NCBI RefSeq assembly: GCF_003172875.1
Contig: NZ_QGKM01000045.1
Span: 1 to 53,734 of the forward strand
Source of the DNA: Leucothrix pacifica
GTDB lineage: Bacteria > Pseudomonadota > Gammaproteobacteria > Thiotrichales > Thiotrichaceae
Direction of reading: 5' to 3'
DNA: 53,734 bases
A program made the position numbers and the translations under genes. Positions 1,772 to 20,923 of the stretch are shown piece after piece (the stretch's first letter is position 1; every line of letters starts with the position of its first letter). Below the pieces are notes generated by a model. The model did not search any database and was not told the DNA's origin. It saw nothing but the letters and a program-made list of their open reading frames with translations.

Positions 1772-2869
1772 TCACCTCTGATCAAAATCCACCACCACCT
1801 CGTCCGACACCGGATGCGCCTGACAAGCTAATATATACCCCGCTTCCACCTCATGCGGTTCCAGCCCATGATTAATATCCATATCCACCTGCCCACTCAC
1901 TAGCTTGGCTTTACAGGTAGAACACACTCCTGCCTTACAAGAATAAGGTAGCTCCATACCATGATGCATACCCGCATCCAGAATATTTTCACCCACCGTC
2001 GCCAGATCAAACATCAACGAGCGCCCATCCGCTACCACGGTTACCTTACTGGTTTTAGCCTCGCCATAGGTATCAATTCGCTGCTGTGCTTTTTCCAATA
2101 TTTTCTCGCTATCTTCAGCCGAGTTAGCAAACAGCTCGTAATGAATCCGGTCATCACTAAAACCCACTCCACGAAAACCACGCGACACTTCCGACATCAT
2201 ACTCTCGGGCCCGCAGATAAACACCTCATCCGTGGTGAGCAGATTAGTCAGCTTGGCTTTGTGCAGCTGTGTGCCCTTTTCATTATCAATCCGGCCATTC
2301 AACACATCAGCCCCCTGATCTTCCTGATTCATAATATTGATCCAGTTAAATCGGGGGAGATACTGATTTTTAATAAAGCCCAGCTCCTCTTTAAACATCA
2401 CAGAATTAGTTCTGCGGTTGCCATAAATCAAGGTCACACGACTCCCCGGCTCATCATGCAAGACGGTTTTGATAATCGACAGAATCGGCGTAATGCCGCT
2501 ACCCACCGCAATACACATATAATTCTTCGCTTGCTGTGGATCTGTTTCGGTGTAAAAACTCCCTTGCGGTGGCATCACCTCAATGGTATTACCCACCTTG
2601 AAATGGTCGTTAGCATAATTAGAGAACGCCCCGCCTTTAACCCGTTTAATTCCCACCCGCATATGACCGTCTGACACTCCGGAACAAATCGAATAAGAAC
2701 GACGTATATCCTTACCCTCAATCTCAGCCTTAAGCGTCAGGAATTGCCCCTGCTTAAAGCGAAACGTTTGTTTTAGCGCATCCGGCACCTCGAAGGTGAC
2801 ACGGATCGCGGTGTCAGTTTCAGGTTGCACATCTGAAATCGTTAAGGGATAAAAACGGGTATCCGACAT
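1772..2869 (-). CDS. paaE: Phenylacetyl-CoA epoxidase reductase subunit PaaE
   Basis: This 365-residue flavin/iron-sulfur reductase passes electrons from NADPH to the di-iron oxygenase PaaAC. Residues 1-100 form an FAD-binding barrel with RRSYSICS. A nucleotide-binding domain follows (CIAVGSGITPILSII, then CGPESMMSEV). The C-terminus is a plant-type 2Fe-2S ferredoxin with C311, C316, C319 and C349 (CKAGVCSTC...ACQAHP). Length and domain order match PaaE (PaaK in Pseudomonas naming). ATG at 2869 has AGGA upstream. It is the last gene of the paaZABCDE run, 16 bases after paaD. Confidence 0.95.
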   Translation of the reverse strand: MSDTRFYPLTISDVQPETDTAIRVTFEVPDALKQTFRFKQGQFLTLKAEIEGKDIRRSYSICSGVSDGHMRVGIKRVKGGAFSNYANDHFKVGNTIEVMPPQGSFYTETDPQQAKNYMCIAVGSGITPILSIIKTVLHDEPGSRVTLIYGNRRTNSVMFKEELGFIKNQYLPRFNWINIMNQEDQGADVLNGRIDNEKGTQLHKAKLTNLLTTDEVFICGPESMMSEVSRGFRGVGFSDDRIHYELFANSAEDSEKILEKAQQRIDTYGEAKTSKVTVVADGRSLMFDLATVGENILDAGMHHGMELPYSCKAGVCSTCKAKLVSGQVDMDINHGLEPHEVEAGYILACQAHPVSDEVVVDFDQR

Positions 2870-2885
2870 GCTGTCGTCCTATAGG

Positions 2886-3443
2886 TTAAATTTGTTTAAA
2901 GTAATCAAACGCTTCGTGGCAATCATTGCACTGAAACAATGCTTTACAAGCGGTAGAGCCGAATTCGCTGAGCCGTTTGGTATCTGACGAACTACAGTGC
3001 GGACATTCGACCCCGAACTCTGGCGTTAAGCCTGATGCATTGCCACAAGCAGACTGCGTAGGCGGCGCAATACCATACTCGCGTAATTTGCGGCGACCCT
3101 CGGGAGACAACCAATCCGTCGTCCAGGCCGGCGCCAATTTTGTCTTCACTTCATAATCGTTAAAGCCCGCTCTGGCCAGCTCGGATTCAATATCATCCTG
3201 CATGGTGCTAATGGCTGGACAACCAGAATAAGTGGGAGTAATCCATACGGTGACTTTGCCATATTCATCTTTGTGTAAATCACATAGCACACCAAGATCC
3301 CAGAGACTCAGCGCCGGTACTTCAGGATCATTCACCACATCCAGCATGTCCCATAACTCGGGCACTTGCGATTGCTGGCGGTGCTGTAAACGCTCCGCCC
3401 ATGCATTCGAAACAACTGGAATATCGCTAATCGATGACGTCAC
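2886..3443 (-). CDS. paaD: Phenylacetyl-CoA epoxidase maturation subunit PaaD
   Basis: The 185-residue protein has an N-terminal MIP18/DUF59-like domain (DVVNDPEVPALSLWDLGVL, then TPTYSGCPAISTMQ) and a C-terminal zinc-finger-like region with CPHC and CNDC pairs. PaaD is thought to assist assembly of the metal centres of the epoxidase (PaaE Fe-S cluster and/or the PaaA di-iron site). It starts with GTG at 3443, 6 bases after the paaC stop, so it depends on translation of paaC. The size is usual for PaaD/PaaJ. Confidence 0.92.
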   Translation of the reverse strand: MTSSISDIPVVSNAWAERLQHRQQSQVPELWDMLDVVNDPEVPALSLWDLGVLCDLHKDEYGKVTVWITPTYSGCPAISTMQDDIESELARAGFNDYEVKTKLAPAWTTDWLSPEGRRKLREYGIAPPTQSACGNASGLTPEFGVECPHCSSSDTKRLSEFGSTACKALFQCNDCHEAFDYFKQI

Positions 3444-3449
3444 GCCGAC

Positions 3450-4217
3450 CTACCAAGTCACGCCGGGGTGAGCGCGGTGTAAAAACTGCATTTCAGTTAA
3501 TAAATGACCGAGGTTTTCCGTGTGATAACCGGTTCGGCCACCGCGTACCACCCAACTGTCTTCAGGCACAGTCAGTGTCGCTTCAGTTAAAATAGCAGTG
3601 ACTTTTTCCAACCATTGTGGACGCAAGGCTGCACTGTCCACCGCAATACCGGCTTCAATTAGTTGCTGTTCCAAGGCATCGACATCGAACATTTCATGGG
3701 TGTAGCCCCATAAATTATCAACCGCATTTTGCATACGCTGGTGGCTTTCTGCGGTGCCATCCCCCAAACGCAGCGTCCATTCATGACTGCGACGCAAGTG
3801 ATAACGGGTTTCCTTCACCGCTTTGGCGGCAACCGCGGCTAAGGTTTCATCCTTCGACTGCAGCTGCTGTTGCAAAAATAGCGTATTAAACACATCCACA
3901 AACAACTGGCGCGCCATGGTGTGAGCAAAATCCACACGCGGCAACTCGTTAATCAGCAGATTGGTGTATTGACGCTCATCACGAAGATAAGCAAAGTCAT
4001 CTTCCGTACGGCCCTCACCTTCCAGCTCTGCCGCATACGTAAAATACATTCGCGCACGACCTAAAAAATCCAGCGCTACATTTTGCAAAGCCAGATCTTC
4101 TTCAAGAAATGGGCCGTTACTACACCACTCTGATATCCGGTGACTCAATATGATCGAGTCATCTCCCAGACGCGTCACGTACTGCATGGTTGCTTGTTTT
4201 AAATCTGTCTCAGTCAT
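3450..4217 (-). CDS. paaC: Phenylacetyl-CoA epoxidase structural subunit PaaC
   Basis: PaaC is the non-catalytic ferritin-like partner of PaaA; the PaaAC core binds PaaB and the reductase. The sequence has the characteristic blocks LGDDSIILSHRISEW, LDFLGRARMYFTYAAE, DERQYTNLLINELP, KAVKETRYHLRRSHEW and HTENLGHLLTEMQFLHR, matching enterobacterial PaaC along its length. I chose ATG at 4217, with TGAGG 7 bases upstream; an in-frame GTG at 4229, overlapping the paaB stop, is the alternative and adds four residues. Product about 255 residues. Confidence 0.93.
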   Translation of the reverse strand: MTETDLKQATMQYVTRLGDDSIILSHRISEWCSNGPFLEEDLALQNVALDFLGRARMYFTYAAELEGEGRTEDDFAYLRDERQYTNLLINELPRVDFAHTMARQLFVDVFNTLFLQQQLQSKDETLAAVAAKAVKETRYHLRRSHEWTLRLGDGTAESHQRMQNAVDNLWGYTHEMFDVDALEQQLIEAGIAVDSAALRPQWLEKVTAILTEATLTVPEDSWVVRGGRTGYHTENLGHLLTEMQFLHRAHPGVTW

Positions 4218-4225
4218 CTCACGCC

Positions 4226-4513
4226 TCACATATTGTCCACTGCTTTTGGCAGCTCGTAATACATAGCATGGCGATACGGCTTGTCATCTGACGGATCAAA
4301 AAAGCTATCGCTGTCATCTTCCTGAGAGGCGCAAATATCACTGGAGCGCACCACCCAAATACTCACCCCTTCACTCCTGCGCGTATAAACATCACGGGCA
4401 TATTCCAGTGCTTGCTCATGGTCTTCGGCGTGCAAACTGCCAACATGCTTGTGGTCAAGGCCGCGACGTGAGCGGAGAAATACTTCATATAAATCTAATT
4501 CTTGTGTCGCCAT
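4226..4513 (-). CDS. paaB: Phenylacetyl-CoA epoxidase subunit PaaB
   Basis: PaaB is a small bridging/regulatory subunit of the epoxidase. The 95-residue protein has the family start LDLYEVFLRSRRGLDHKHVGS, with HAEDHEQALEYARDVYTRRSEG and SIWVVRSSDI following. ATG 4513 is preceded by GGAG. It lies 9 bases after the paaA stop and its 3' end touches paaC, so paaA-B-C are one transcript. No unusual residues are seen. Confidence 0.94.
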   Translation of the reverse strand: MATQELDLYEVFLRSRRGLDHKHVGSLHAEDHEQALEYARDVYTRRSEGVSIWVVRSSDICASQEDDSDSFFDPSDDKPYRHAMYYELPKAVDNM

Positions 4514-4522
4514 GGTTGTCTC

Positions 4523-5458
4523 CTATGCGGCCTGTTGCTTGGCGGATCTTTTCTTATCACGATAGGCATGCATGGCTTCGCGCACCCACTCGCCTTCTTC
4601 ATGTGCCCGAACATGGTGCTCAATGCGCTGGCGATTGGCATGACCATTACCATTAATCACGTTATAGAATTCATCCCAGTCGATTTCGCCAAAGTCATAA
4701 TGACCGCGTTCCTCGTTCCATTTCAGGTCTTTATCCGGGTGTTCCAGCCCCAGCACTTCAATCTGTTTCACCGTTTGATCCACAAATTTCTGACGTAAGT
4801 CATCATTGGTTTCACGTTTAATTTTCCATTTCATAGAACGCGCCGAGTGTGCTGACTCCGAATCATGCGGGCCAAACATCATGAGTGCAGGCCAGTAAAA
4901 ACGATTCAGAGAGTCCTGTGCCATTGCCTTTTGCGCTGCAGAACCTCGCGATAAGGTAACCATAATTTCGTAACCCTGACGCTGATGGAAACTCTCTTCC
5001 TTACAGATCCGAATCATGGCACGAGCATAAGGCCCATAAGATGTGCGCTGTAGTGACACCTGATTCACAATTGCCGCGCCATCAACCAGCCAGCCAATCG
5101 CGCCCATATCGCCCCAGGTCTGCGCGGGGTAATTAAAGATCGAGGCATACTTCGCTGTACCGGTTTGCAGTGCTTCGATTAACTCATTGCGACTAATGCC
5201 CAGCGTTTCCACCGCGCTGTACAAATACAATCCGTGCCCACCTTCATCCTGTACTTTTGATAGCAAAATCCCTTTGCGCCTCAAAGACGGTGCACGGGTA
5301 ATCCAGTTACCCTCTGGTTGCATACCGATAATCTCAGAATGACCGTGTTGGGAGATCTGACGGATCAGATTTTTGCGATAGTCATCCGGCATCCAATCTT
5401 TCGGCTCGATTTTTTCCCCGGCCTCTATCTTGCGCATAAAATTTTCTTCAGGCGTCAT
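4523..5458 (-). CDS. paaA: Phenylacetyl-CoA epoxidase catalytic subunit PaaA
   Basis: PaaA is the di-iron oxygenase that converts phenylacetyl-CoA to ring-1,2-epoxyphenylacetyl-CoA. The 311-residue length matches the family. The iron-ligand helices are visible as [19 protein letters not shown] and [13 protein letters not shown] (E-x-x-H patterns), with [20 protein letters not shown] further on. ATG 5458 follows GAGGA by 6 bases. A 71-base gap separates it from paaZ upstream in the same direction; no terminator is obvious there, so paaZ is probably co-transcribed. Confidence 0.95.
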
Positions 5459-5529
5459 ATCTCTATCCTCATTTCACTGCATTGCCTTACGACTAAACAC
5501 ATTTATCTGCTAGCTGCACCTATCCGAAG

Positions 5530-7551
5530 CTAATCCGCTACCAACGTCAACACATCATAATTAGCCACCACATCACCATGCTGATTCACGATGGTGGTAT
5601 CCCAGCGCACTTCGCCATATTCTTCTGTCTCACGATTCACTTTTTGTTTGCAGGTAAACTGTACCTGCAACTCATCACCGGCATACACGGGCGACGCAAA
5701 CCGCAGATTATCCATGCCATAGTTGGCTAGTACCGGCCCTTCATCCGGCCAGACAAACAAACCTGCCGCCATCGATACCAAGAAATAACCATGTGCTACC
5801 CGATCTTCAAAAAACGGATTACGCCGGGCTGCATCTTTATCCATGTGGGCATAAAATTTATCGCCGGAAAGCTCGGCAAAGGCTTCAATATCGTCCAATG
5901 TGATGGTGCGTTTTTCGGTGATAATCGCATCACCAATTGCCAATTCATTAAAGGTTTTTCTGAACGGGTGAATGCCATCAGTATTGCGCTCAGCACCCTG
6001 CATCCATGCACTGGTAATCGCGGTCAACATGTCAGGAGAACCCTGAATCGCCGTGCGTTGCATATAGTGTTTCACTCCCCGGATACCGCCCATTTCCTCA
6101 GAGCCACCGGCACGACCGGGGCCACCGTGAATCAGGTGTGCCAAGGGTGAACCGTGACCGGTTGATTCTTTGGCGCACTTTTCATCCAGCACCACCATGC
6201 GACCATGATGTGGCGCAGCGCCCAATACTAAGATTCTGGCAATATCAGGGTCAGCGGTTATTACCGAACCCACCAAGCTCCCTTTGCCCATTGCCGCCAG
6301 CTCAATCGCCTCCTGATCATCCTCGTAAGGGACCAAGGTGCTAACCGGGCCAAAGGCTTCAATATCATGCACACAAGAACCGATTGGTTCGTGGCAGGCC
6401 ATCAAAATCGGCGACATAAATGCACCGGTCTCGGCAGAAGCGCCAACTACATCAACCTCATCCATACTGCCGTAGACAATCTCGTTATCTGCGGCCAGTT
6501 TGCGTACCTGATCCAACACATCACTACGCTGATCCATGCCGGCAAGTGCGCCCATGCGTACCCCTTCCTGATCCGGGTCGCCCACCATGGTTTTCGCCAA
6601 GCGCGACGACAAGGCTTCAGCAACGGCTTCCATGCGGTCTTTTGGTACGATAGCGCGGCGAATCGCAGTACATTTCTGACCGGCTTTCACCGTCATTTCG
6701 CGCGCAACTTCTTTGATATATAAATCGAATTCCGCAGAGCCGGGCTGCACATCACGCCCCAGAATCGAGCAATTCAGTGAGTCAGCTTCCATGAAAAAGC
6801 GCGTGTTGTTTTGCACAATCGCTTCGGACTGTTTCAGCTTCAGCCCCGTCCACGCAGAACCAGTAAAACTCACTGCATCCTGATAAGTCATATGATCCAA
6901 GAGATCACCGGTAGCACCGCAAATTAACTGCAGCGCACCCTCTGGTAAAATACCGGACTCGATAATATGGCGAACCATCAATTCAGTGAGATAAGCGGTT
7001 TGGCTGGCGGGTTTTACAATCGTGGGAACACCGGCTAAGAAAGTCGGCGCTAATTTTTCTAGCATGCCCCAGCAAGGGAAATTAAAGGCATTGATCTGCA
7101 CCGCAACACCTTCAATCGGCGTGTAAATGTGCTGTGCGGTAAAACTACCATTTCGTGAAATCTGTTCCTGCGCACCATCCAGCATTACATTGCTGTTCGG
7201 CATCTCGCGGCGGCCTTTGCCGGAGAAAATAAATAAGGTGCTGATCCCACCTTCGATATCTACCCATGAATCGGTTCGGGTTGCGCCAGTGGCTTTTGAT
7301 AACTCGTAGAAAAGCTCTTTGCGCTCCATCAAATACTTGGCGAGCTCTTTAAGCATGAGCGCGCGCTGGTGGAAAGTGTATTTACGCATTGCGGGGCCAC
7401 CAACTTTACGGGCGTAGTCCAGCATGCTTTTGAAATCCAAACCATCGCTGGTGATTTCGGCAACGTCAGCACCCGTGATTGCATGGCGCAGCATCAATCC
7501 TGATTGGGATGACTGATACCACTCGCCTTCAGCGTAGTTTTGTAATTTCAA
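5530..7551 (-). CDS. paaZ: Bifunctional oxepin-CoA hydrolase / 3-oxo-5,6-dehydrosuberyl-CoA semialdehyde dehydrogenase PaaZ
   Basis: PaaZ hydrolyses the seven-membered oxepin-CoA ring and oxidises the resulting aldehyde with NADP. Residues 1-530 are an aldehyde dehydrogenase with INAFNFPCWG, SFTGSAWTG, E255 in FFMEADSLN and nucleophile C294 in AGQKCTAIRR. Residues about 540-673 are a MaoC-type (R)-hydratase domain (FAELSGDKFYAHMD then RVAHGYFLVS) supplying the hydrolase. Both active sites look intact, unlike ALDH-only homologues that leak a toxic aldehyde. The start is TTG at 7551 with GAGGAACG upstream. It is the first gene of the operon; regulators PaaX or PaaR are not in the window. Confidence 0.95.
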   Translation of the reverse strand: MKLQNYAEGEWYQSSQSGLMLRHAITGADVAEITSDGLDFKSMLDYARKVGGPAMRKYTFHQRALMLKELAKYLMERKELFYELSKATGATRTDSWVDIEGGISTLFIFSGKGRREMPNSNVMLDGAQEQISRNGSFTAQHIYTPIEGVAVQINAFNFPCWGMLEKLAPTFLAGVPTIVKPASQTAYLTELMVRHIIESGILPEGALQLICGATGDLLDHMTYQDAVSFTGSAWTGLKLKQSEAIVQNNTRFFMEADSLNCSILGRDVQPGSAEFDLYIKEVAREMTVKAGQKCTAIRRAIVPKDRMEAVAEALSSRLAKTMVGDPDQEGVRMGALAGMDQRSDVLDQVRKLAADNEIVYGSMDEVDVVGASAETGAFMSPILMACHEPIGSCVHDIEAFGPVSTLVPYEDDQEAIELAAMGKGSLVGSVITADPDIARILVLGAAPHHGRMVVLDEKCAKESTGHGSPLAHLIHGGPGRAGGSEEMGGIRGVKHYMQRTAIQGSPDMLTAITSAWMQGAERNTDGIHPFRKTFNELAIGDAIITEKRTITLDDIEAFAELSGDKFYAHMDKDAARRNPFFEDRVAHGYFLVSMAAGLFVWPDEGPVLANYGMDNLRFASPVYAGDELQVQFTCKQKVNRETEEYGEVRWDTTIVNQHGDVVANYDVLTLVAD

Positions 7552-7777: not shown

Positions 7778-10700
7778 TCAATGATGTTTAACGTCATTGA
7801 GAGGTGATAAATCAATCATTAGTTTGGAAAAAATTAATGCTATCTCTTCCTTTGAAAAATCCCTCTCTAATAAGTTTTTCAACAAATCTTCCTGCCTTGG
7901 TTGCCCAAAGGAAAGTCTGTACAACGCAAGTAACTTAAGAGCATATTGTAGCCTCTCAACATCCTGGCTCAGAGGCATAAGAGGCACAAAACGTTCTATC
8001 TTTGCTTTTCCCTCAGGGTAATGCCAGTAAGGAATCAAATCGCTTTCACGTGAACTAGACGTTTGCTTGTCTGCCCAACGAAACAACTTATTCCACCGGT
8101 ACCGTCTTCGTAATTTTCTTGTTGTCGTTTCTGGATGACTCGCTATGTATTGCTCCGCAATACGCCTTCGAACTAATAATGATTTGTAGCGGTTAACCCG
8201 CCCCTCGCGCTGTTCAATATCAATTGGGTTGCTAGGCAGATTCCAATGCACAATACGCAAGCAATACCAGTGGAAATCAAGACCCTCTTGACCTATCGAA
8301 GTAGAATTCAACACAAAAGGATAAAATGGAGAGTTAAAAGCATCGCGAACATTACTAATACGCTTTGTACCTTTTTCATCGGATAATTTTTGGTTCCCCA
8401 ATGGTAGTGCATAGTGGCAACGCAGCTTAGAGCGCCGACCACTTGCTTCAACCTGCGAGCGTACCTCGCGGAACTGACAATCTATGGTTGTATCAGAAAG
8501 ACTTAATACTTCACTTAACTGCCGTATTGCATCATCCATGCTCTGGCCAGAACCTTTTAATAAGTGTGCATATTCCTCAATAACCGCTTGAAAATCTCCG
8601 TCTGCGGCATAGCGAATAACCGACTTGAAATATTTTTTATTGTTATGCCGTTTAGTAATGACTAACTCAGTCATACGGTTATTAAACAAGGTAATTGCTG
8701 CTTCTCCTACCTCTCCAGCCGCTACTCTAATTTCTTCAATATCATTCTGATAAAGGCTCTTCAATGCTCTCACTGTGACAACAGACGGACTAGATATTGA
8801 AAGATAAGCAAGATAGCGGGCTAAATCTTTGGGCATTTTCCCTAAGCGAAGGAGATTATCGTTCCAGTTCCTCAAAAATTGCTCGTAGCTAGCCTGCTTG
8901 CCTTTACGCCCATCTTGTTTTCTTCGTTGTATCACTCGTCGGTAGTCATCGAGCCACTGACAGACTTCATTCTTATAGCCACATTCGTAGTCTAGGAGAA
9001 ATGGAGCATAAGCATACCAACGCTCACTTTTCACATCAGAAGTTTCATACGCACTGAGGTGCTTGAGCTTATCTCTAAAAAAAGACTCCCTTTCATTTAC
9101 CAGCTCATCCAAACTCGCCCACCTACCAGCCGAAGACAACTCACACATGACCCTGGATGGATAGATAAATGACCAACCGACCAGGCTTGAGTCGGCCGAA
9201 AAATTGAAACCAGGTGTATGTGATTTCTTGCTTTTATAATAGTCTTGCGATTGTTTGCTGTGCGCTACCAAACGCCTTTCAGCTTCATATGAAATTAAGC
9301 CGCTCAATGCCCTGGGTACAATAGCCCATGATGAAAATAACAGGGTTTTACTGAAATCTTCCTGCCCTTCAAAACTACCCTGTAATGGGTAATGCGGGAG
9401 GGATGGTGGCACCCAAAGCAACTCCTCGCTAGCCGTTTTAAATTTATTCTGGGGAAACAGTTTTTTGACTAACGAACGTGTTTTAGCATGAGGTGCTTCA
9501 TCAAGTTTTAAACGATAACTACTGATAGCTTTTCTGGGCAGCCATCCTTGATGTGAACGCCGTATATCACCTCTTAGCTTACTGCGATGAACATCAAGTT
9601 GTCTTCTTAACTGATAACCCGTCAGGAATGATAAAGCCCAAGGTGCTGCTTTATGAAACTCCATCACTTGATGAGTGGAGCGAGAGCTACTTTCTTCAGC
9701 AAGTGACTTAGCTAGTTGCGCTAAGGCTTTAAACAGTGTGATTTCACCACTTGAAAACTCATCAATGCACTGATCTACTTGAGTGCTAAATACCTCCTCA
9801 TAAGACCCACTAATCTGGCTGCGTTCTGTACGACTAATATATTGCCTTAGTACGCCCTCTACCTGTGCTTTTGACAGGTCACATAGGTCATCAAGCACCA
9901 TATTGTTCTGTCGTAGTTTCAGTAACTGTTGCTGAAGTACTTTTCTATGCTGCTCATATTCTTGCAGGCTTTCTGCATTATCATGACTAAGAAACCTGAG
10001 TAACAAGTTCAATTCAGCCGCATGGGCTTCACCATTCTCATCATCTTGATTGTGTGAAAAAGCCTTAAAAGGTGTTGCTGAAAGTAATAACACCTTTGAT
10101 GCCTGCTTATTCTTAAACACTTGCTGAGCAATCAGCGCTTCCTCAGCGCCACTTTGTGTAGCAAGCAAGGATTTAAAGCGTTGAAATTCATCCAGAATAA
10201 ATAAGTCTGCCGATAAATGCTTTGCACATGCTCTGGCCATGAGTAAGCGTAAGTAGGTTTTGAAATGAGTAGAATTACTGATAGCAGACGAGCTCTGTGA
10301 GTAAGCTAACAGTGCTTCTAAAGCTGTTTTATAGCCATCGCCAATGCCGTATTTAGCTCTCTCAATGACATCCAGAGTTTTAGATAAGCGCTCATGAAAT
10401 GCCGTTGCAACTTCAGGTAAAATTATTTTTGAATCAGGAAATGCAATGCGTTGCTCCTCCCAGTTTTTCACTCCATCGCTTAAAAAATCACTTAATGTTT
10501 CTGAGTACTCTGACAGCTTTGAATGATCAATTAGCGCAAAATAAATAATTAACCGTTCTCGCCAGTTTCCATAGCCTTGTGTTAAGTTGAACGATGTCGA
10601 AGGTGTTAATGAACATAGTTCTAAATATTTTCCATTCTTATCTGGCTGAACTTCGGCTACAGCAATCTCAAGTAAACGACTATAACGCGGCTCCAGAACA

Positions 10701-11041
10701 TACTTCTCCTGCGCTTCATCTTTAAAAACAGCTAGTTTCTTGCGATTTTCATTGGCTAGCGTCAAGTTAGAGCAAATATAGGTGACTCTCAAAGGGCTGA
10801 ATGGCGTATTCCCTGACTGACAAGAGTAACGCTCAATTCTCTCTTTCAATAGCTCGGCAATCACTCCTTTGGCGACAATCGTTTTTCCGAGCCCCACCTC
10901 ATCTGCAACTAACATACGTTCATTATTTTCGCCAGACTGAAACCGAGTAAGCACACTTGCAACAGTAGCCCTCTGGAAATCTTTCAGACCCGCCAACACC
11001 TCATCTAAATGCTCAATAACCTCAGTTATTTCGTCTGTCAT
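7778..11041 (-). CDS. Large SF2 DEAD/DEAH-like helicase of a putative defence cassette
   Basis: The 1087-residue protein has SF2/SNF2-like helicase motifs: Walker A ADEVGLGKTIV (46-56), motif II DEFQ (284-287), motif III LLLSATPFKA (318-327), and motifs V/VI NSTSIGQEGLDFHWY and QREGRVNR (944-951). About 600 residues separate the two RecA halves, far more than in a minimal helicase, so a specific insertion domain is likely. No nuclease domain was recognised in it. Its ATG overlaps the stop of the PLD-like gene by four bases (ATGA), and GAGG precedes it. Likely role: ATP-driven DNA translocation or unwinding that feeds or licenses the PLD-fold partner. The motifs are directly visible; the defence function is inferred from gene composition. 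Confidence 0.8.
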   Translation of the reverse strand: MTDEITEVIEHLDEVLAGLKDFQRATVASVLTRFQSGENNERMLVADEVGLGKTIVAKGVIAELLKERIERYSCQSGNTPFSPLRVTYICSNLTLANENRKKLAVFKDEAQEKYVLEPRYSRLLEIAVAEVQPDKNGKYLELCSLTPSTSFNLTQGYGNWRERLIIYFALIDHSKLSEYSETLSDFLSDGVKNWEEQRIAFPDSKIILPEVATAFHERLSKTLDVIERAKYGIGDGYKTALEALLAYSQSSSAISNSTHFKTYLRLLMARACAKHLSADLFILDEFQRFKSLLATQSGAEEALIAQQVFKNKQASKVLLLSATPFKAFSHNQDDENGEAHAAELNLLLRFLSHDNAESLQEYEQHRKVLQQQLLKLRQNNMVLDDLCDLSKAQVEGVLRQYISRTERSQISGSYEEVFSTQVDQCIDEFSSGEITLFKALAQLAKSLAEESSSRSTHQVMEFHKAAPWALSFLTGYQLRRQLDVHRSKLRGDIRRSHQGWLPRKAISSYRLKLDEAPHAKTRSLVKKLFPQNKFKTASEELLWVPPSLPHYPLQGSFEGQEDFSKTLLFSSWAIVPRALSGLISYEAERRLVAHSKQSQDYYKSKKSHTPGFNFSADSSLVGWSFIYPSRVMCELSSAGRWASLDELVNERESFFRDKLKHLSAYETSDVKSERWYAYAPFLLDYECGYKNEVCQWLDDYRRVIQRRKQDGRKGKQASYEQFLRNWNDNLLRLGKMPKDLARYLAYLSISSPSVVTVRALKSLYQNDIEEIRVAAGEVGEAAITLFNNRMTELVITKRHNNKKYFKSVIRYAADGDFQAVIEEYAHLLKGSGQSMDDAIRQLSEVLSLSDTTIDCQFREVRSQVEASGRRSKLRCHYALPLGNQKLSDEKGTKRISNVRDAFNSPFYPFVLNSTSIGQEGLDFHWYCLRIVHWNLPSNPIDIEQREGRVNRYKSLLVRRRIAEQYIASHPETTTRKLRRRYRWNKLFRWADKQTSSSRESDLIPYWHYPEGKAKIERFVPLMPLSQDVERLQYALKLLALYRLSFGQPRQEDLLKNLLERDFSKEEIALIFSKLMIDLSPLNDVKHH

Positions 11042-12867
11042 TTACTCGGCACCTCTTTCTCAAAATGAGACCAAAGTGTTGCAAAATCATCTGGGAGAGA
11101 AATGCCAGCTCGCCTGAACTCAGTCACCATTACCTGAATACGCTTTAACAAATATGGATGCTCGGCAGCGGCCCACAAAAGTTGCTCATAAACCGGACTA
11201 TTACTAAAAAAGCTCCCATCAGTATTATTGTTTGAGAAATTCATCTTTTCGAAAGCAAGCCATTGAGATTTGTCAGGCTGACTTTGTAATAACAAACTAA
11301 TATAGTTGAGAATTTTATCTTCACCATCGACTATCTTTTTTAGTACCTCTTGCTGACGGTTATCACCACCTTCTATATCGAGATCAGTTTCGATCATAAC
11401 CATCTCAACCAGATCTTCCTCACCAGTAACTTGAACAGTCACCTTAACCGGTACAAAAGCAGATACTTCGGACACGGCAACGTCTGACCAGAACATTTTG
11501 TCGATTAGTGGCAGTGGTTTTCCAAAGGCTAGTTGTGAGACTTGAATCTCAACATTATGATGATCATGCAAAACAAAACCATCAACACTTAAGTGAAGAT
11601 CATACTTGTCGTCTTCCGACCTTAGGATCGCCTCTTGTTGCCAATCAGAATTGATTAAGTCAAATACGATTTCACGCATTTGATTAGTGGCTGGGTGCCT
11701 TACATCAACAGCTTCAGACTGAGGTTTATATCTGACAAAAAGCCCGTTTTCATCCTCTTCAACACCCACCCATTGTTCCATTAGAACATCAGGGCCAACT
11801 TTGCGATTATCACCAGAAAGTCTCAGCATGGCCTCTGTGTTGAGCGGCATTTGATTATCGCACCCCAGTGCAGCATTTGTGGCATTTGCCGAACCAATGT
11901 GCCAACACACCCGTGATGCCTTGCGAGAAACAATCAACTTTGCATGTAAATTATAAGGCTTTCCCGCTACTGCTGAATCATCTGGTTCTAATTCACCAGC
12001 ATCCGCATTAACCATGTTTTCATTAATCGCATAACACTTCCATCCTGAAAGCTCTTTATCACTAAGCGCATTCAGTTCTTCAGCACGACTAAATAAATAT
12101 CGCTCTCCCTTAGGTGCATAACTTTGAAGATCATCCAATGCCGCTTTAGACAAGAAAGGTGAGGTAACCAGTAGCTGATCATTTGTATAGGAAGGAAACT
12201 TCAGAGGTGAATGTTCACTATCACCTATAAATATCTCAGGAGTACTATCAAATCCCGAGGGAGTTTCCCAGTGAATACGAGGTAACTCGCGAAGAAACTC
12301 ACGTCGAGGTTCAAAGTCCGTACTCGACTCAAGTAAATTTTCAATCCAAGTTAACCAATATGTATTAGCGGCTTCCTGATTAGGCTTCTTTTTAAGCTCA
12401 CCGGCCAAACTCACCGCAACATCCCAACTACGATCCATCGTCAGGTTTCTTGACAGAATAATAAAGCGGTACTTAACAGCAGGTTTAATATTTTTTTCCA
12501 GAGCTGTATATCTAATCAACCAAAGTTTGGGGTGGAATGAAGAGAATGCTTTGTCAGGAACAATTGGATATAAGCACGGCTCTAGTAAGGTGAATAACTG
12601 ATTAAATGCAATGGGCTGAGCAATGTTACCTTTTTGATAAAACACCTTTAGCCGTTTATTTAATCTACTGATCGCCTCTAACAGTGCTAGCTTTTCACCT
12701 CTTAAATCTCCCTCCAATGTATTCCCGAAACACAAGGCAATTGGCACTGCCAACAGAGTATCTAAGTCCACGCTATAACTGGTTGCAATGGCTGCATCTA
12801 ACTCGTACCCTTCAGGAGCTTGCAATTGTTCACCATAATCTAAGCGGTTCTTGTCAGGTGATAACAT
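11038..12867 (-). CDS. Phospholipase-D-fold protein (putative nuclease) of the defence cassette
   Basis: The 609-residue protein carries two PLD half-sites: FHPKLWLIRY (H112, K114) with SRNLT (139-143), and LHAKLIVS (H308, K310) with GSANAT (325-330). TSPFLS near 235 is also typical of this fold. The canonical D of HxKxxxxD is not obvious in either copy, as in many PLD-like nucleases of defence systems. The C-terminal 250 residues have no recognised domain. No signal peptide or membrane segment, so it is cytoplasmic. It starts 14 bases inside the end of the DUF6361-like gene with GAGGGG as ribosome site, and its stop overlaps the helicase start. Nuclease rather than lipase activity is inferred from the helicase partner. 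Confidence 0.75.
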   Translation of the reverse strand: MLSPDKNRLDYGEQLQAPEGYELDAAIATSYSVDLDTLLAVPIALCFGNTLEGDLRGEKLALLEAISRLNKRLKVFYQKGNIAQPIAFNQLFTLLEPCLYPIVPDKAFSSFHPKLWLIRYTALEKNIKPAVKYRFIILSRNLTMDRSWDVAVSLAGELKKKPNQEAANTYWLTWIENLLESSTDFEPRREFLRELPRIHWETPSGFDSTPEIFIGDSEHSPLKFPSYTNDQLLVTSPFLSKAALDDLQSYAPKGERYLFSRAEELNALSDKELSGWKCYAINENMVNADAGELEPDDSAVAGKPYNLHAKLIVSRKASRVCWHIGSANATNAALGCDNQMPLNTEAMLRLSGDNRKVGPDVLMEQWVGVEEDENGLFVRYKPQSEAVDVRHPATNQMREIVFDLINSDWQQEAILRSEDDKYDLHLSVDGFVLHDHHNVEIQVSQLAFGKPLPLIDKMFWSDVAVSEVSAFVPVKVTVQVTGEEDLVEMVMIETDLDIEGGDNRQQEVLKKIVDGEDKILNYISLLLQSQPDKSQWLAFEKMNFSNNNTDGSFFSNSPVYEQLLWAAAEHPYLLKRIQVMVTEFRRAGISLPDDFATLWSHFEKEVPSK

Positions 12868-14095
12868 TAGCTAACCCCTCAGATAAATCTTTTAGGATTA
12901 CTTTTGCAGTACTCCATCGAAAATCTAATCGCTCAACACCAATCCAATTCTCATAAGGTGCATTATTTTTCAATTTACTGAGCTTACCTTTGTTTTTATG
13001 AGATTGTTGGCTAACAATTTTTTGGATGTCTTCCGCTGCATGATGATTTGAAGAAGCCAGAAATGTAGCTGCAAATTCGCGGATAAATAACTGTGTATGT
13101 GGCTTTATATTACGAGGCTTTCCATCGACTCTTACCGTCAGCCAACCATTCACCGAATTAGTGTTAAAAACATCTCTGGCACGCGCTTTTTTTGCCCATC
13201 CCTTATATCCCTCTGATAAATCCATCACTTGTAATTCATCACCATTAGCCTGAGCAAGCAGGAGGTTAAGCACAATATGAGGACCTTCCATAGCTAAACT
13301 AAAGTCACTAGCCAGCTTGAGGTTATGTTTGCAGGCTTCAGAAACGGTCTGTTCATGAAGCATTTTTTCAACTAGTTCATCAAACTCCATTTCATACGGA
13401 GCTACATCACCATGTATGAGTTCACTAGCGAATATTTGTGCAAATATACTATCTTCTAAACCTATCGTTTCAGTCATTTTTGCGGTTAAGAATTTCGCCT
13501 CAACTGCACTTAATTGCATTTGTAATTTCGACTCATTCCGCCAAACAGGGTCGTTATCAGGCAGTTCAATCAAGGCACTTTCAGTGTGATCAGTAGCATC
13601 GTCCTGATGATCATAAGACAACCTTTCTTCATTACTTTGTAATGCACGCGCCACCTCAGCCAAGCTAGCGGTGGTATTAGCAATATGAAATTTTCTTAAG
13701 CCTCCCCAATAGATAGTTGAGGGTAATTGTTTAACACCACCTGATGCGATCGATGTTCGTCCGATGATGCCCAGTTCATCGATAGAACAACATTCAACAA
13801 GTTGGCGTGTTAGCTCATTCTCCTGCGTTTTAAGATACTGTTGTAATGGTTGCTTCTTGCGTTTGGCTGATGGGAGTTGTTGGTACTCTCTTAGTAAGCG
13901 CGGAACAAATATGAAATACTTTGCCCGTGTTTGGATTGTGGATATACCGGGGAAAAGCAAATCAGCAAATGCATCACGGATCTGACCAATGCCTAATTCA
14001 TCAAGCGTGCCTTTGTCTGCCATCATCGCCAGAGCTTGTTTAACTTTACCTCTGTCTTCTGACGAAAAATCAATCCATCCGAGTTGACTAACCAT
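12854..14095 (-). CDS. DUF6361-like protein, first gene of the PLD/helicase cassette
   Basis: The 413-residue protein starts VSQLGWIDFSSEDRGKVKQA, with GIGQIRDAFADLLFPGISTIQTRAKY and FIFVPRLLREY following. This matches my recollection of DUF6361, a family of unknown function that tends to sit beside PLD-like and helicase genes. No catalytic motif, membrane segment or signal is visible. It is the promoter-proximal gene (ATG 14095 with GGAAG upstream) and overlaps the PLD gene by 14 bases, so the three products are made together. It may be the sensor or DNA-specificity subunit, but that is a guess. GC content looks slightly lower than the paa genes, consistent with transfer. Confidence 0.65.
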   Translation of the reverse strand: MVSQLGWIDFSSEDRGKVKQALAMMADKGTLDELGIGQIRDAFADLLFPGISTIQTRAKYFIFVPRLLREYQQLPSAKRKKQPLQQYLKTQENELTRQLVECCSIDELGIIGRTSIASGGVKQLPSTIYWGGLRKFHIANTTASLAEVARALQSNEERLSYDHQDDATDHTESALIELPDNDPVWRNESKLQMQLSAVEAKFLTAKMTETIGLEDSIFAQIFASELIHGDVAPYEMEFDELVEKMLHEQTVSEACKHNLKLASDFSLAMEGPHIVLNLLLAQANGDELQVMDLSEGYKGWAKKARARDVFNTNSVNGWLTVRVDGKPRNIKPHTQLFIREFAATFLASSNHHAAEDIQKIVSQQSHKNKGKLSKLKNNAPYENWIGVERLDFRWSTAKVILKDLSEGLANVIT

Positions 14096-14274: not shown

Positions 14275-14865
14275 CTACAATGGCGGTATATCTAATCCAA
14301 CTTCGCGTCGGACTCGCCTGTAGATATCTGTCACGGGCAACTCTAAGTCGATAGACTCCAACAGAATATTATCCTCAGCACCAAAGATTTCAATCTGCCA
14401 ATTGGTTCTTCGACGATACACTCGAACGAATGGAGTGTCTTGAGATACTACGACGTATTCTAAGAGAGATTTAATCTGGGTGTAGCTTGATAGCTTTTCA
14501 TTCAAATCAATGCGATGCGTCGACTTTGAAAGCACTTCGGCAATCAGCAATGGGTTAGTGCGGTAATAAGCATTCTCATCATCGTCAGCATCACAGGCAG
14601 CCATAATATCGGGATAATAACTGAAAGGCTGCAAATCAAGCGTACTTCCAACAACCTTCATATCTGATTGCCAGACTCGGCAATGTGCCGGTAGGTGTAT
14701 GTTGATACGGGCATAAAAATCACCCGCAATCGTGTTATGTGTCTCACTTGCACCTGCCATGGCGTAAATCTCACCACCTACATATTCACTGCGAAACTCT
14801 ACATCCTGCTCTCCTTCAAGGTACTCTGTAAAAGAAGCGTTCAAATGTTGTAATACTGATACCAT
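14275..14865 (-). CDS. Uma2-family (DUF820) PD-(D/E)XK nuclease-fold protein
   Basis: The 196-residue protein has the Uma2 outline: SFTEYLEGEQ, RSEYVGGEIYAMAGAS, then YPDIMAACD and LIAEVLSKSTHRIDLNEKL, ending with a strand-rich tail. YPDIM (with D) and AEVLS (with E), followed by the KL region, correspond to the PD-(D/E)XK core. These genes are abundant in cyanobacteria and some gammaproteobacteria; their function is unclear, with transposon or defence roles suggested. ATG 14865 has AGGA 9 bases upstream. It lies 179 bases upstream of the cassette in the same orientation and could be a passenger or a fourth member. Confidence 0.8.
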   Translation of the reverse strand: MVSVLQHLNASFTEYLEGEQDVEFRSEYVGGEIYAMAGASETHNTIAGDFYARINIHLPAHCRVWQSDMKVVGSTLDLQPFSYYPDIMAACDADDDENAYYRTNPLLIAEVLSKSTHRIDLNEKLSSYTQIKSLLEYVVVSQDTPFVRVYRRRTNWQIEIFGAEDNILLESIDLELPVTDIYRRVRREVGLDIPPL

Positions 14866-14945: not shown

Positions 14946-16826
14946 TTAAGGAGTGTTCACCGTCAGGTTTTGCAAGAAAAACGCCGCCAACTCATCGGTT
15001 GCGGAAAATGGTAAAACCTGCGCCACATACTGATCCGGACGCACAATTACTACGGCTCCTCCAGTATCAATCTCACGCAGCGAAAAGATGTCGCTATCGG
15101 CCTGAGTCGCGTAAATTTTCTCGTAATCAACCAGACCAAATTTCCCCACTTTTGGCAGGAATACCTTGGGAATATCAGGGACTTCCACATCGTGATGGCC
15201 TTGCTGATAAATCACTTTCACATCAAACCGACTCGTAAAATGACTTCCTTTAGGAGTGTGCACATTTAGCGGTGAGGCAGGATCATTCGACAACCAATCC
15301 GCCCATGCATTGAGTGCCGTCCTATCTGTATCAGCAAAGGCATAGATACGCCAGCAACCATCGGCTTTCGCATGATGACCAAGGTGTGCTGGTACGGCAT
15401 CAGCAATTCGCATCACCGGTGCTGATTTGAAGCGTTTACCGACAGTGAATCCCTTAGCTAAAGTTTGGTGAGCGTCATTGCCCGTAATCATGGACTCGGT
15501 ATATTGCGTCATAAAACCTGCGGGGAACTCGGCAGTGCGCACATAAAAATCGCCTAAGTCCTCAGGGCTGTCGAACTCTTCCGGCTTCTTCGCCATCAGA
15601 GTCGACCACTCCTTGTCAAAATCAATCAGGTTCTGCGCAATCACCTGACGCTCGGCAGAGTAAGTGGCAAGTAATGATTCCGGACTACGACCTGTTAAGA
15701 CCGAACCCAACTTCCAACCCAGATTAAAGCCATCCTGCATCGACACATTCATACCCTGACCGGCTTTGGCACTGTGTGTATGACAAGCGTCACCACAAAT
15801 AAACACATGCGGCAGACGTTTATCCTCCTCGCCAATCGCCACATCATCAAACTTATCCGTTACCCGATGCCCAACTTCATAGACCGACCACCACGCCACA
15901 TCTTTCACATCCAGAGTGTAGGGGTGAATAATGGCATTTGCCTGCGCGATGATGTCTTCTAAGGGTGTTTTGCGTACTTCGCCGTTGTCATCGGCTGCCA
16001 CATCACCCAAATCAACATACATGCGGAAAAGGTAACCACCCTCTCGTGGAATCAGCAATATACTGCCGTGATCTTTTGACTGGATAGCACATTTGGTACG
16101 AATATCGGGGAAATCGGTGACTGCCAACGCATCCATCACGCCCCATGCATGCAGCGCCGGATCACCAATATGCTGACGCCCGATTGCTTTACGCACTCCA
16201 CTGCGCGCACCGTCACAACCCACGGCGTACTTGGTACGGATGACACGTTCCTCACCTCTTCGCTCACCTGCGGTATAACGCACTGTGACTGAGACCGGAT
16301 ACTCGCCCTCACCAACTTCAAGATCAACAAAGGCAATGCCGTAGTCCGGAGTGATGCGCCCCGGTGAAATCGCTGCAACTTCGGCAAAATAATCAAGCAC
16401 CCGCGCCTGGTTCACGATCAGGTGTGGAAACTCACTAATACCATGTGCATCATCCAAAGTACGCTGTGTGCGAACGATATTTTCCGGTTTATCTTTGGAC
16501 GGTGTCCAAAAATTCATTTCACAGATTTGATACGCCTCAGCAGTAATGCGGTCAGCAAAACCAAACGCCTGAAATGTCTCGACACTGCGAGCCTGAATAC
16601 CATCAGCCTGTCCGACTTCTAATCGCTTATCCCGACTCTCAATCAGGCGAGCATTCACACTTGGGTACTGTGACAACTGCGCTGCCAGCAACATGCCAGC
16701 AGGTCCGGAGCCCACGATCAGCACATCCATTTCATCCGGTAGTTCTTCCGCGCGATTTATCCCATACCCTTCTGCCGGAACGATACGGGGGTCAGTTGAC
16801 ACATATCCATTATGGTGAAATTGCAC
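14946..16826 (-). CDS. FAD-dependent aromatic hydroxylase (phenol 2-monooxygenase / 3-hydroxybenzoate 4-monooxygenase type)
   Basis: The 626-residue flavoprotein has the Rossmann motif IVGSGPAGML (37-46), the NAD(P)H/FAD motif GCDGARSGVR (203-212) and the second FAD motif FICGDACHTH with AGQGMN (342-360). A C-terminal thioredoxin-like domain from about 450 completes the phenol hydroxylase/MobA class. It would insert one hydroxyl into a phenolic ring using NAD(P)H and O2. ARVLDYFAEV and QADGIQARSVE match 3-hydroxybenzoate 4-hydroxylases, but substrate cannot be fixed. The start is GTG at 16826 with GGAG 9 bases upstream. No ring-cleavage genes are adjacent, so it stands alone here. Confidence 0.85.
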   Translation of the reverse strand: MQFHHNGYVSTDPRIVPAEGYGINRAEELPDEMDVLIVGSGPAGMLLAAQLSQYPSVNARLIESRDKRLEVGQADGIQARSVETFQAFGFADRITAEAYQICEMNFWTPSKDKPENIVRTQRTLDDAHGISEFPHLIVNQARVLDYFAEVAAISPGRITPDYGIAFVDLEVGEGEYPVSVTVRYTAGERRGEERVIRTKYAVGCDGARSGVRKAIGRQHIGDPALHAWGVMDALAVTDFPDIRTKCAIQSKDHGSILLIPREGGYLFRMYVDLGDVAADDNGEVRKTPLEDIIAQANAIIHPYTLDVKDVAWWSVYEVGHRVTDKFDDVAIGEEDKRLPHVFICGDACHTHSAKAGQGMNVSMQDGFNLGWKLGSVLTGRSPESLLATYSAERQVIAQNLIDFDKEWSTLMAKKPEEFDSPEDLGDFYVRTAEFPAGFMTQYTESMITGNDAHQTLAKGFTVGKRFKSAPVMRIADAVPAHLGHHAKADGCWRIYAFADTDRTALNAWADWLSNDPASPLNVHTPKGSHFTSRFDVKVIYQQGHHDVEVPDIPKVFLPKVGKFGLVDYEKIYATQADSDIFSLREIDTGGAVVIVRPDQYVAQVLPFSATDELAAFFLQNLTVNTP

Positions 16827-18436: not shown

Positions 18437-19048
18437 ATGTCAGCTTTAACGCTTTACACCAACCCACAATCTCGCGGCCTCATTGCCCATTGGATGCTGG
18501 AAGAACTAGGCGAACCCTATGACATCGTCACTCTGGATTATGAATCCTCCATGCAAGCGCCGGAATATCTGGCGATTAATCCAATGGGTAAGGTGCCTGC
18601 ACTCAAGCACGGTGACACCGTGATTACGGAAACCGCTGCTATTTGCACGTATCTGGCTGCCCGTTTTCCGGAGAAAGGCTTGATTCCGGCAGTGGATGAT
18701 CCGGCGCTCGGTACATTCTATCGTTGGTTATTTTTTGCAGCAGGCCCCGTGGAGCAAGCCATTACTGTCAAATCCCAAGGCTGGAATGTTAAACCAGAGC
18801 AGGAAATGACGGTCGGTTTCGGTAACTACACAATGACCATTGATGCGCTGGAAACCGCTCTGCAACCCGGCCCGTTTATTTGTGGAGAACAATTTACCGC
18901 AGCTGATGTTTATGTAGGTGCTCAGATTCGTTGGGGGCTGATGTTTGGCACGATTGACAAGCGACCACTATTTGAAGCTTATGCAGAGCGCATGTCTGCC
19001 CGTCCTGCGTTACAGCGCTCGGAGCAAATGAATCAGCCGGATCCATAA
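18437..19048 (+). CDS. Glutathione S-transferase
   Basis: The 203-residue protein has the GST two-domain layout: thioredoxin-like residues 1-80 (LTLYTNPQSRGLIAHWMLEE, INPMGKVPALKHGD, ITETAAICTYLA, with the glutathione-binding ETAAI), then a helical domain ending in FTAADVYVGAQIRWG. It conjugates or reduces with glutathione in the cytoplasm; substrate unknown. The ATG has GGAGG 8 bases upstream. It is transcribed alone and ends 22 bases before a long inverted repeat. Confidence 0.88.
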   Translation: MSALTLYTNPQSRGLIAHWMLEELGEPYDIVTLDYESSMQAPEYLAINPMGKVPALKHGDTVITETAAICTYLAARFPEKGLIPAVDDPALGTFYRWLFFAAGPVEQAITVKSQGWNVKPEQEMTVGFGNYTMTIDALETALQPGPFICGEQFTAADVYVGAQIRWGLMFGTIDKRPLFEAYAERMSARPALQRSEQMNQPDP

Positions 19049-19070
19049 AATTTTTCTTACGATGATGTGT

Positions 19071-19103
19071 GCATGGATTGCGAATTGAATGACCAATCCA
19101 TGC
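19071..19103. terminator. Inverted repeat between convergent GST and Cys-rich protein genes
   Basis: GCATGGATTG (19071-19080) and CAATCCATGC (19094-19103) pair perfectly over 10 bases around a 13-base loop. No long T-run follows on either side, so it may be a bidirectional but weak terminator, or an mRNA end-stabilising hairpin. Confidence 0.5.
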
Positions 19104-19126
19104 AGACTGCCCTGTAGTTACACGGA

Positions 19127-19504
19127 CTACAAGTTACGCACGATAAACCGCTCATAATAATCTCGGGCCGTCATACTCTCCGCACAAGGATAGCAGATAA
19201 ACTCTTCTAGCTCCTGAGGATTTCCAAAGATCCCGTCAGTACTATTCAGATCAAAGTAATCATTGCATGCCTCACACTTTCGGGCATCGCAACTGCCATC
19301 CTGAATACTGTTAATCCACTCTTTTGCCAGCTCTTTAAACGGCACATAACCATCAATCTCAATGGTGTTTTTGTCGCTGTCAAAACTGAGTTCAGGATAG
19401 TTAATCATCCTCACAATAAACGACCACATATTCGGCGTGAGCTCGACGTCCAGCGCTTGGTTTGCATCACTGATTGAGTAAGATTCTTGTTTTATATTTT
19501 GCAT
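19127..19504 (-). CDS. Small cysteine-rich, probably zinc-binding protein
   Basis: The 125-residue protein has no recognised family. The C-terminal half contains two cysteine pairs, CEAC followed by NDYFDLNS, and CYPC followed by AESMTARDYYER, that could hold one zinc. The N-terminal half is acidic with SFDSDKNTIEIDGYVPFKEL. No signal peptide. GGTAAT precedes ATG 19504. It converges on the GST gene and is divergent from the ATPase gene. Function is unknown. Confidence 0.6.
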   Translation of the reverse strand: MQNIKQESYSISDANQALDVELTPNMWSFIVRMINYPELSFDSDKNTIEIDGYVPFKELAKEWINSIQDGSCDARKCEACNDYFDLNSTDGIFGNPQELEEFICYPCAESMTARDYYERFIVRNL

Positions 19505-19631
19505 AGTGATTACCCTCAGAAAGTCATTTATTAAGTTTATAGTGCTGCCTTTATAGCGGCAACTGTTTCGATCAGTACTGTTTGCTCACCAATAGCGGCT
19601 AAAAAAGAAACTCAATAGATATTTGTATTTC

Positions 19632-19676
19632 AGGAATACATTCCTTATTATCAATAAAAATATAGGAATACATTCC
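19632..19676 (+). promoter_or_regulatory. Two identical palindromic boxes abutting the ATPase start
   Basis: AGGAATACATTCC occurs at 19632-19644 and again at 19664-19676, exactly 32 bases (three helical turns) apart. Each contains GGAAT-AC-ATTCC, an inverted repeat. The second copy contains the AGGA ribosome site and ends one base before ATG 19678. A factor bound there would block both transcription and translation, so this looks like a tight operator. The binding protein is unknown; self-regulation by the winged-helix part of the ATPase is possible. Confidence 0.65.
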
Positions 19677-19677
19677 C

Positions 19678-20889
19678 ATGTTGAATCAACTACTAGCAAC
19701 ACATAAGCGTTTACTAGCTGCGACCAAGACGCAGCATCATCGGTATTTGTTTGACACCTTCAACACCAACAACAGACTGACTGGCTTAATTGGTGCGCGT
19801 GGTACAGGCAAGACCACGCTACTTCTGCAATATATAAAAGAGAAAATAAAGCGGCAAGATGAGGTCCTTTACGTATCACTGGATCACCTGTATTTCTCTG
19901 ATCACTCGTTGCTGGATTTTGTGAATGAGATGATCGAGCTGCAAGGCATCCGTTATTTCTTTTTTGATGAAGTTCACAAGCACCCCAACTGGAATCAAAT
20001 CTTAAAAAATATCTACGACTCTTATCCTGATATCACGGTTGTTTTTTCAGGAAGTTCAAGTATCGACCTAATCCAGGGTACGCATGATTTGTCTCGTCGC
20101 GGGGTTCTATATCATCTTAGCGGCATGTCGTTTCGTGAGTATTTGAGTTTTCAAAAGGTCGCGACCGTTGAAGCAATCACACTCGAGGCCTTGTTATATG
20201 ACAGAAGTAGCATCGAGGGCCAAGTCGCTGAACTACCCAAATTGCGTGGCCATTTTCAGGATTATTTAGCCTATGGGTTTTACCCATTTTTTCTAGAAGG
20301 TACAGACACTTACCAAGAAAAGTTGCTACGAGTAGTCGATAAAACTATTTACGAAGACATTGCGAATCATTACCGCTTAAATACCGACAAGCTTCATTAC
20401 TTTAAGCGTTTACTTTCTTATATGGCAACGATACCGCCGGGCGAGTTAAGCCGAAACAGCATCGCTAAACACATTGGTTTGGACAACAAAACCGTACAGC
20501 ACTATTTACACATTTTGCAAGATACTGGCTTGGCAGAGCTGGTTAAAGATAACCGGGCAGGTAGCCAGTTGCTTAAGGCAAGTGAGAAAATATACCTCGC
20601 CAACCCCAATCTGTACCAAACCATAAGCACCGAGATTGGACAACCAAGTAAGATTGGATCAGTGCGAGAATTATTTTTTATCAAGATGCTAAAACATGCA
20701 AACCACCCACTGTATTACAGCAAAGTTGGTGATTTTGAAGTTAATGGCGTGATTTATGAAATTGGCGGAAAAAGTAAAACAACTAAGCAAATTCGCCATA
20801 CAGACAGCCCTGCATTCTTAGTCAAAGACGATATTTTGTATGGCAATAAAAAAGAGATTCCTCTGCACTTATTTGGTTTTTTGTATTAA
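19678..20889 (+). CDS. AAA ATPase with winged-helix segment (AAA_14/DUF4143-like)
   Basis: The 403-residue protein has Walker A GARGTGKTTLL (39-49), Walker B YFFFDEVHKHPNW (93-105) and a sensor-like VVFSGSSSID (121-130). A helix-turn-helix stretch near 255-295 (SRNSIAKHIGLDNKTVQHYL) is followed by a C-terminal domain resembling DUF4143, which ends with a strand-rich nuclease-like part (FFIKMLKH then YYSKVGDFEVNGVIYEIGG). This arrangement is that of many bacterial AAA_14 ATPases, whose role is unsettled. It precedes a nucleotidyltransferase by 34 bases on the same strand and follows the twin boxes. Defence or toxin-antitoxin-like function is a hypothesis. Confidence 0.75.
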   Translation: MLNQLLATHKRLLAATKTQHHRYLFDTFNTNNRLTGLIGARGTGKTTLLLQYIKEKIKRQDEVLYVSLDHLYFSDHSLLDFVNEMIELQGIRYFFFDEVHKHPNWNQILKNIYDSYPDITVVFSGSSSIDLIQGTHDLSRRGVLYHLSGMSFREYLSFQKVATVEAITLEALLYDRSSIEGQVAELPKLRGHFQDYLAYGFYPFFLEGTDTYQEKLLRVVDKTIYEDIANHYRLNTDKLHYFKRLLSYMATIPPGELSRNSIAKHIGLDNKTVQHYLHILQDTGLAELVKDNRAGSQLLKASEKIYLANPNLYQTISTEIGQPSKIGSVRELFFIKMLKHANHPLYYSKVGDFEVNGVIYEIGGKSKTTKQIRHTDSPAFLVKDDILYGNKKEIPLHLFGFLY

Positions 20890-20923
20890 GAAATACCATC
20901 ACACAAGCAAGAGATAACAGACC

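Follow-up and report, generated by a model that had tools for sequence, protein, structure and literature searches.

Three adjacent genes in a 53,734-nucleotide stretch of DNA from Leucothrix pacifica (hereafter the window, meaning the whole stretch that was analysed) are, as judged from their sequences, a complete Azaca system, ZacA-ZacB-ZacC, which is already catalogued in PADLOC. The locus is an ordinary, intact and fairly diverged copy of that family. The best explanation as a whole, to which we assign a probability of roughly 0.65, is that the window holds complete Azaca and that its three proteins would work as one DNA-targeting machine.

A sequence-only reading of this DNA had described three overlapping minus-strand genes, and we found its coordinates, lengths and overlaps (14 bases for ZacA/ZacB and 4 bases for ZacB/ZacC) to be right, with a purine-rich stretch upstream of every ATG (3/3 genes). 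All three products match the PADLOC Azaca models nearly end to end: ZacA matches PDLC03828 at E 1.2e-95 (residues 1-408 on model positions 1-394 of 396), ZacB matches PDLC03829 at E 1.8e-140 (residues 1-606 on 1-581 of 586), and ZacC matches PDLC03830 at E 1.8e-273 and 908.8 bits (residues 12-1081 on 6-1017 of 1019). A full-length ZacA, a ZacB with the PLD residues and a ZacC with helicase motifs are thus present together, adjacent on one strand in the reading order A-B-C seen in other Azaca loci. From these near full-length matches of all three proteins we conclude that the window holds the complete system; the same matches, with motifs kept across the family alignments, exclude chance open reading frames. 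Relative to catalogued Azaca (PDLC03828-03830), the families, their order, the kind of overlap and the motifs are the same and only ordinary divergence separates them: in the closest of 79 loci compared (L010), identity is 42% for ZacA, 46% for ZacB and 54% for ZacC. The earlier proposal of a self-contained three-gene defence cassette therefore stands, with genes that are found together rather than scattered, but as a named system and not as a new candidate.

Table 1. Azaca genes and protein features in the window. Conservation was counted in family alignments that include the window (85 rows for ZacA, 89 for ZacB and 89 for ZacC).
Feature	Coordinates	Strand	Conservation or basis
ZacA gene (DUF6361 protein, 413 aa, first in operon)	12854..14095	minus	
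ZacB gene (PLD-superfamily nuclease-like protein, 609 aa)	11038..12867	minus	
ZacC gene (SF2 helicase-type motor, SNF2-like core, 1087 aa)	7778..11041	minus	
ZacB first PLD half-site, H112-P-K114 ... S139-R140-N141	12445..12534	minus	
ZacB second PLD half-site, H308-A-K310 ... G325-S326-A-N328	11884..11946	minus	
ZacC Walker A, G50-L-G-K53-T54	10880..10894	minus	G50, G52, K53, T54 89/89
ZacC Walker B, D284-E-F-Q-R288	10178..10192	minus	D284, E285, F286, Q287 89/89; R288 88/89
ZacC motif III, S321-A-T-P324	10070..10081	minus	89/89
ZacC motif IV (our own assignment), K565-T-L-L-F-S570	9332..9349	minus	K565, F569, S570 89/89; model strand 565-569
ZacC second-RecA-lobe insert, ~residues 593-888, mainly helical	8378..9265	minus	predicted model
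ZacC motif V, T914-S-I-G-Q-E-G-L-D-F-H924	8270..8302	minus	G917 to H924 89/89
ZacC motif VI, E943-QREGRVN-R951	8189..8215	minus	E943, Q944, R945, G947, R948, R951 89/89
ZacC C-terminal conserved segment, F1045-GQPRQ1050	7892..7909	minus	Q1050 88/89; G1046, Q1047 87/89

Aligning ZacC against 84,980 species genomes returned at least 537 related stretches, and the best 80 of these, with seven plasmid loci and one locus from a phage collection, gave 88 Azaca loci. In this set, whose genome part is the best 80 of at least 537, ZacB accompanied ZacC in 88/88 loci and ZacA in 84/88, in the order A-B-C on one strand without exception; the four loci without ZacA (L031, L065, L080 and L089) all lie at a contig start. 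Some genes are split into two frames (ZacA in L002 and L063, ZacB in L023), and neighbouring genes overlap in 65/84 A/B pairs and 66/88 B/C pairs, with starts picked by script. The distance matrices of the three proteins correlate at r 0.90-0.93 across 80 rows, window included, against a permutation maximum of 0.094 (n=500).

Because the 80 genome loci are the best ZacC matches, the 88-locus count alone cannot exclude lone copies of ZacA or ZacB. The independent test of co-occurrence is a survey of 397 genomes from one phylum, drawn evenly from a larger group and including the window's own. ZacC at E 1e-40 or better was present in five of these, which were also the genomes with a near full-length ZacB; DUF6361 was found in the same five and one more, and in all five the three families were direct neighbours. 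The sixth DUF6361 genome (G415, L098 1176-1818) carries the start of ZacA adjoining a ZacC tail with the FGQPRQEDLL segment, and we rejected this orphan as counter-evidence since the tail alongside marks it as a remnant of a deleted Azaca. The gene beside the remnant looks, by our reading, like a helicase-nuclease of the UvrD/AddA type, and a UvrD gene also flanks the plasmid-borne Azaca of L007. A further 55 genomes matched the ZacB model partially, at E 3.7e-15 or weaker and mostly over the second half-site; we took these to be other PLD proteins, and the model also matched 5/14 control genomes. The DUF6361 match in G219 is limited to model positions 4-248, with a second ZacC piece (model positions 815-1016) about 44 kb off, and ZacC in G242 has one internal stop. 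Scattered homologues were not seen in this neighbourhood search, which the sequence-only reading had suggested.

The cassette was likely acquired horizontally, since full ZacC was found only in the window's own genome among 57 searched (its own and 56 relatives, some of them incomplete), three of the relatives giving only short ZacC motif matches with E between 3e-4 and 9e-4. Its G+C content is 41.6%, compared with 49.6% for positions 1772-7551 (paaZ and the genes beyond) and 50.3% for a monooxygenase gene at 14946-16826; as proof of foreign origin this is weakened by other stretches of the window (19001-20500) that are as low. In an empty-site comparison with one relative (G001), whose paaZ is 78% identical, another gene, channel-like by our reading, lies upstream of paaZ, so the comparison did not define the insertion point. 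Scans for promoters and terminators returned fewer sites than in shuffled sequence.

Among 72,556 plasmid records, 54 matched ZacC, 45 ZacA and 42 ZacB, which also fits a horizontal origin. Annotation of the seven plasmid loci places a methylase next door in two of them: in L003 (1-13025, a Haliscomenobacter plasmid) Azaca splits a type I restriction-modification system, with the M/S genes on one side and the R gene on the other, and in L007 it is beside a DNA methyltransferase. Two records of the phage collection matched ZacC, one over 6% only and the other (L008, a record marked unverified, from human fecal samples) with the full set, and neither of two alignment scans of viral contigs returned a relative of ZacC or ZacA.

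Several other genes in the window were also noted. Just upstream of the operon is a gene for a Uma2 putative endonuclease (14275-14865, with a fairly low G+C of 43.7%; PADLOC candidate PDC-S03). It is one of 20 Uma2 matches in the genome, and we did not count it as part of Azaca. At 783-1606, a PIN-domain-like (DUF3368) gene and its UPF0175 antitoxin-like partner both match candidate PDC-S70, and at 19678-21832 an AAA_14/DUF4143 ATPase gene (candidate PDC-S01) is followed on the same strand by an RlaP-type nucleotidyltransferase gene. An HsdR-like type I restriction subunit is encoded near the contig end (50284-53373); the neighbouring genes that were tested include neither a methylase nor a specificity gene.

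To place the ZacC insert, we mapped the conserved motifs onto a predicted model (pLDDT 87.6, pTM 0.90). The very large helicase insertion described earlier is divided by the model into two pieces: residues ~325-564 (about 240) separate motif III from motif IV, and ~593-888 (about 300) lie between motifs IV and V, with helices to about residue 846 and then a few strands. SNF2-type motors (ISWI, SRCAP, INO80 and RapA) make up most of the 50 fold matches listed for ZacC, the top one at Z 14.7 over 455 residues with rmsd 5.1. Rows for SNF2-type motors and for ZorD of Zorya (listed at Z 13.1) cover 405-466 residues of the core at Z 13.1-14.7, with rmsd mostly 4-6 and identity of 12-18%, and the best Foldseek match is SWR1 (E 3.9e-7). 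Dicer-2 (Z 14.3) and MDA5 (Z 13.7) are tied with the SNF2 rows within Z 1-2, which makes the SNF2 label a likeness and not proof. By sequence, ZacC scores 22.1 bits against Pfam SNF2-rel_dom, under the cut-off of 24.9, and matches among solved structures only a motif stretch of RapA. The predicted ZacC core appears most like SNF2 motors in fold, which is likeness rather than membership.

ZacB was previously said to carry two HxK/GSxN half-sites. This holds for the second (H308/K310 with G325-S326-N328), whereas the first reads HPK...SRN and has no G before the S. Both are well kept in the family: H112 is found in 84/89 rows, K114 in 85/89 and N141 in 84/89, the remainder being gaps except for one R at K114, and each of H308, K310, G325, S326 and N328 in 86/89, the other three rows being gaps. 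Pfam PLDc_2 matches 5/8 members of alignment A2; the window ZacB is not among its matches and did not itself match any Pfam family at E 0.1. Searches against solved structures returned short or weak sequence matches only; in these the second half-site shows a weak likeness to 7clg, a putative helicase chain (E 0.0007), and to R.NgoVII, a restriction enzyme (4rct, E 0.21). The two half-sites, lying in one chain, could form one active site.

ZacA matches Pfam PF19888 (DUF6361) at E 1.3e-29 and 103.8 bits, against a cut-off of 25, and the ZacA model was matched by 69/69 ZacA proteins of alignment A4, which matched no other model at E 0.001. A conserved block comprises residues 32-65, and its predicted structure is almost all-helical (pLDDT 89.5, pTM 0.87). 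The sequence had no match among solved structures at E up to 1, and fold comparison with solved structures gave nothing convincing: the best Foldseek match has E 0.7, and the best VIA-align match has Z 4.4 over 100 aligned residues at rmsd 3.4. The fold is not thereby shown to be new, because the VIA-align rows mostly span residues 217-372 only. The suggested role of the DUF6361 protein in recognition finds no footing here, as the predicted fold, with no convincing solved match, points to no function; a literature search largely outside subscription papers returned no mention of DUF6361.

In the model that we favour, the ATP-driven SF2 motor ZacC, with its SNF2-like core, would load on invading DNA and travel along it, and ZacB would cut the phage DNA. 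We infer that the motor brings the nuclease to foreign DNA and that ZacA is a coupling or control part, which may regulate both partners, possibly on the ZacC insert. Recognition may depend on some property of phage DNA, such as ends, replication forks or topology, and not on the lack of a methyl mark, since the three-gene unit has no methylase. The place of ZacA in the machine is guesswork. In INO80-type remodellers the insert serves as an assembly platform, and by analogy ZacA might be a new helical fold, a sensor or adaptor that docks on the ZacC insert and licenses ZacB only when the motor stalls or meets a phage DNA structure, an idea that we hold only tentatively. The position of an insert does not in itself make it a place of docking.

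A different working of the same proteins is possible, although we think it clearly less probable: Azaca would be abortive and damage-sensing in the manner of Hachiman, with ZacC restraining ZacB until phage-disturbed DNA frees the nuclease and host and phage DNA are destroyed alike. Hachiman (HamA-HamB) resembles Azaca in its working, in that a nuclease is coupled to an SF2 motor, and excerpts of the literature describe its helicase as a sensor; the three Azaca genes include no methylase to mark self. Hachiman consists of two proteins rather than three, and at E 0.01 none of the three Azaca proteins matched a Hachiman model in PADLOC. Whether Azaca restricts phage DNA alone or kills the cell cannot be told from sequence.

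Two further alternatives were weighed. The pairing of a PLD protein with a helicase would suit a DISARM or Dpd system in degenerate or minimal form: excerpts on DISARM describe an SF2 helicase together with DrmC, a PLD nuclease, and passages of PMC12458937 describe helicases in Dpd and also PLD endonucleases in Dpd-like systems. ZacC does weakly match the DrmD, DrmA, DpdE and BrxH models, and a candidate family, PDC-M27C, at E 3e-20. The best stretches of these matches are, however, short: most cover 35-90 residues in the region of motifs V-VI (the DrmA match is confined to residues 910-953), and they lie far under the NCBI cut-offs (58.8 against 500 bits for DpdE, 51.3 against 610 for DrmD), whereas the ZacC model spans nearly the whole protein. 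As the sequence-only reading had noted, DrmA, DrmB and a DNA methyltransferase are absent from the three genes, on PADLOC, Pfam and NCBI model searches (DrmB at E 0.01 in PADLOC), as are the 7-deazaguanine genes of Dpd. DrmC moreover appears from those excerpts to be non-essential in DISARM, whereas ZacB is a constant partner in the loci counted above. Models and scores thus lead us to reject membership of DISARM or Dpd, which we regard as hardly credible. Slightly less remote, yet still improbable, is a complex with which mobile elements repair or maintain DNA and which has no part in defence. The families do occur on plasmids, and it is general knowledge that SNF2 motors and PLD enzymes also act in repair; against this stand the patchy distribution among the surveyed genomes and relatives, the restriction-type genes that adjoin some loci (L003 and L007), and the cataloguing of the family as defence. 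Complete Azaca acting on DNA remains the reading that we prefer.

Azaca was reportedly shown to protect against phage by Millman et al. in 2022. Passages of later papers attribute the system to that study and give it a PLD-like domain (PMC10952713), and group ZacC with other proteins that carry an SF1/SF2 helicase domain (PMC12278908). Partial views of surveys record it in E. coli (PMC10121019), Pseudomonas islands (PMC12629846) and Halococcus (PMC13321033), one table lists it with systems whose degradation of nucleic acids is 'validated or predicted' (PMC10855318), and a passage of a 2026 review gives its mechanism as unknown (PMC12926258). Our search, from which most subscription papers fell away, returned no title about how Azaca works. 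What was read as a candidate for a new system thus has a name, Azaca, and the present locus supplies pieces for testing its mechanism: PLD half-sites that could pair into one active site, a motor of SNF2-like fold whose insert is delimited, and a DUF6361 fold predicted with confidence.
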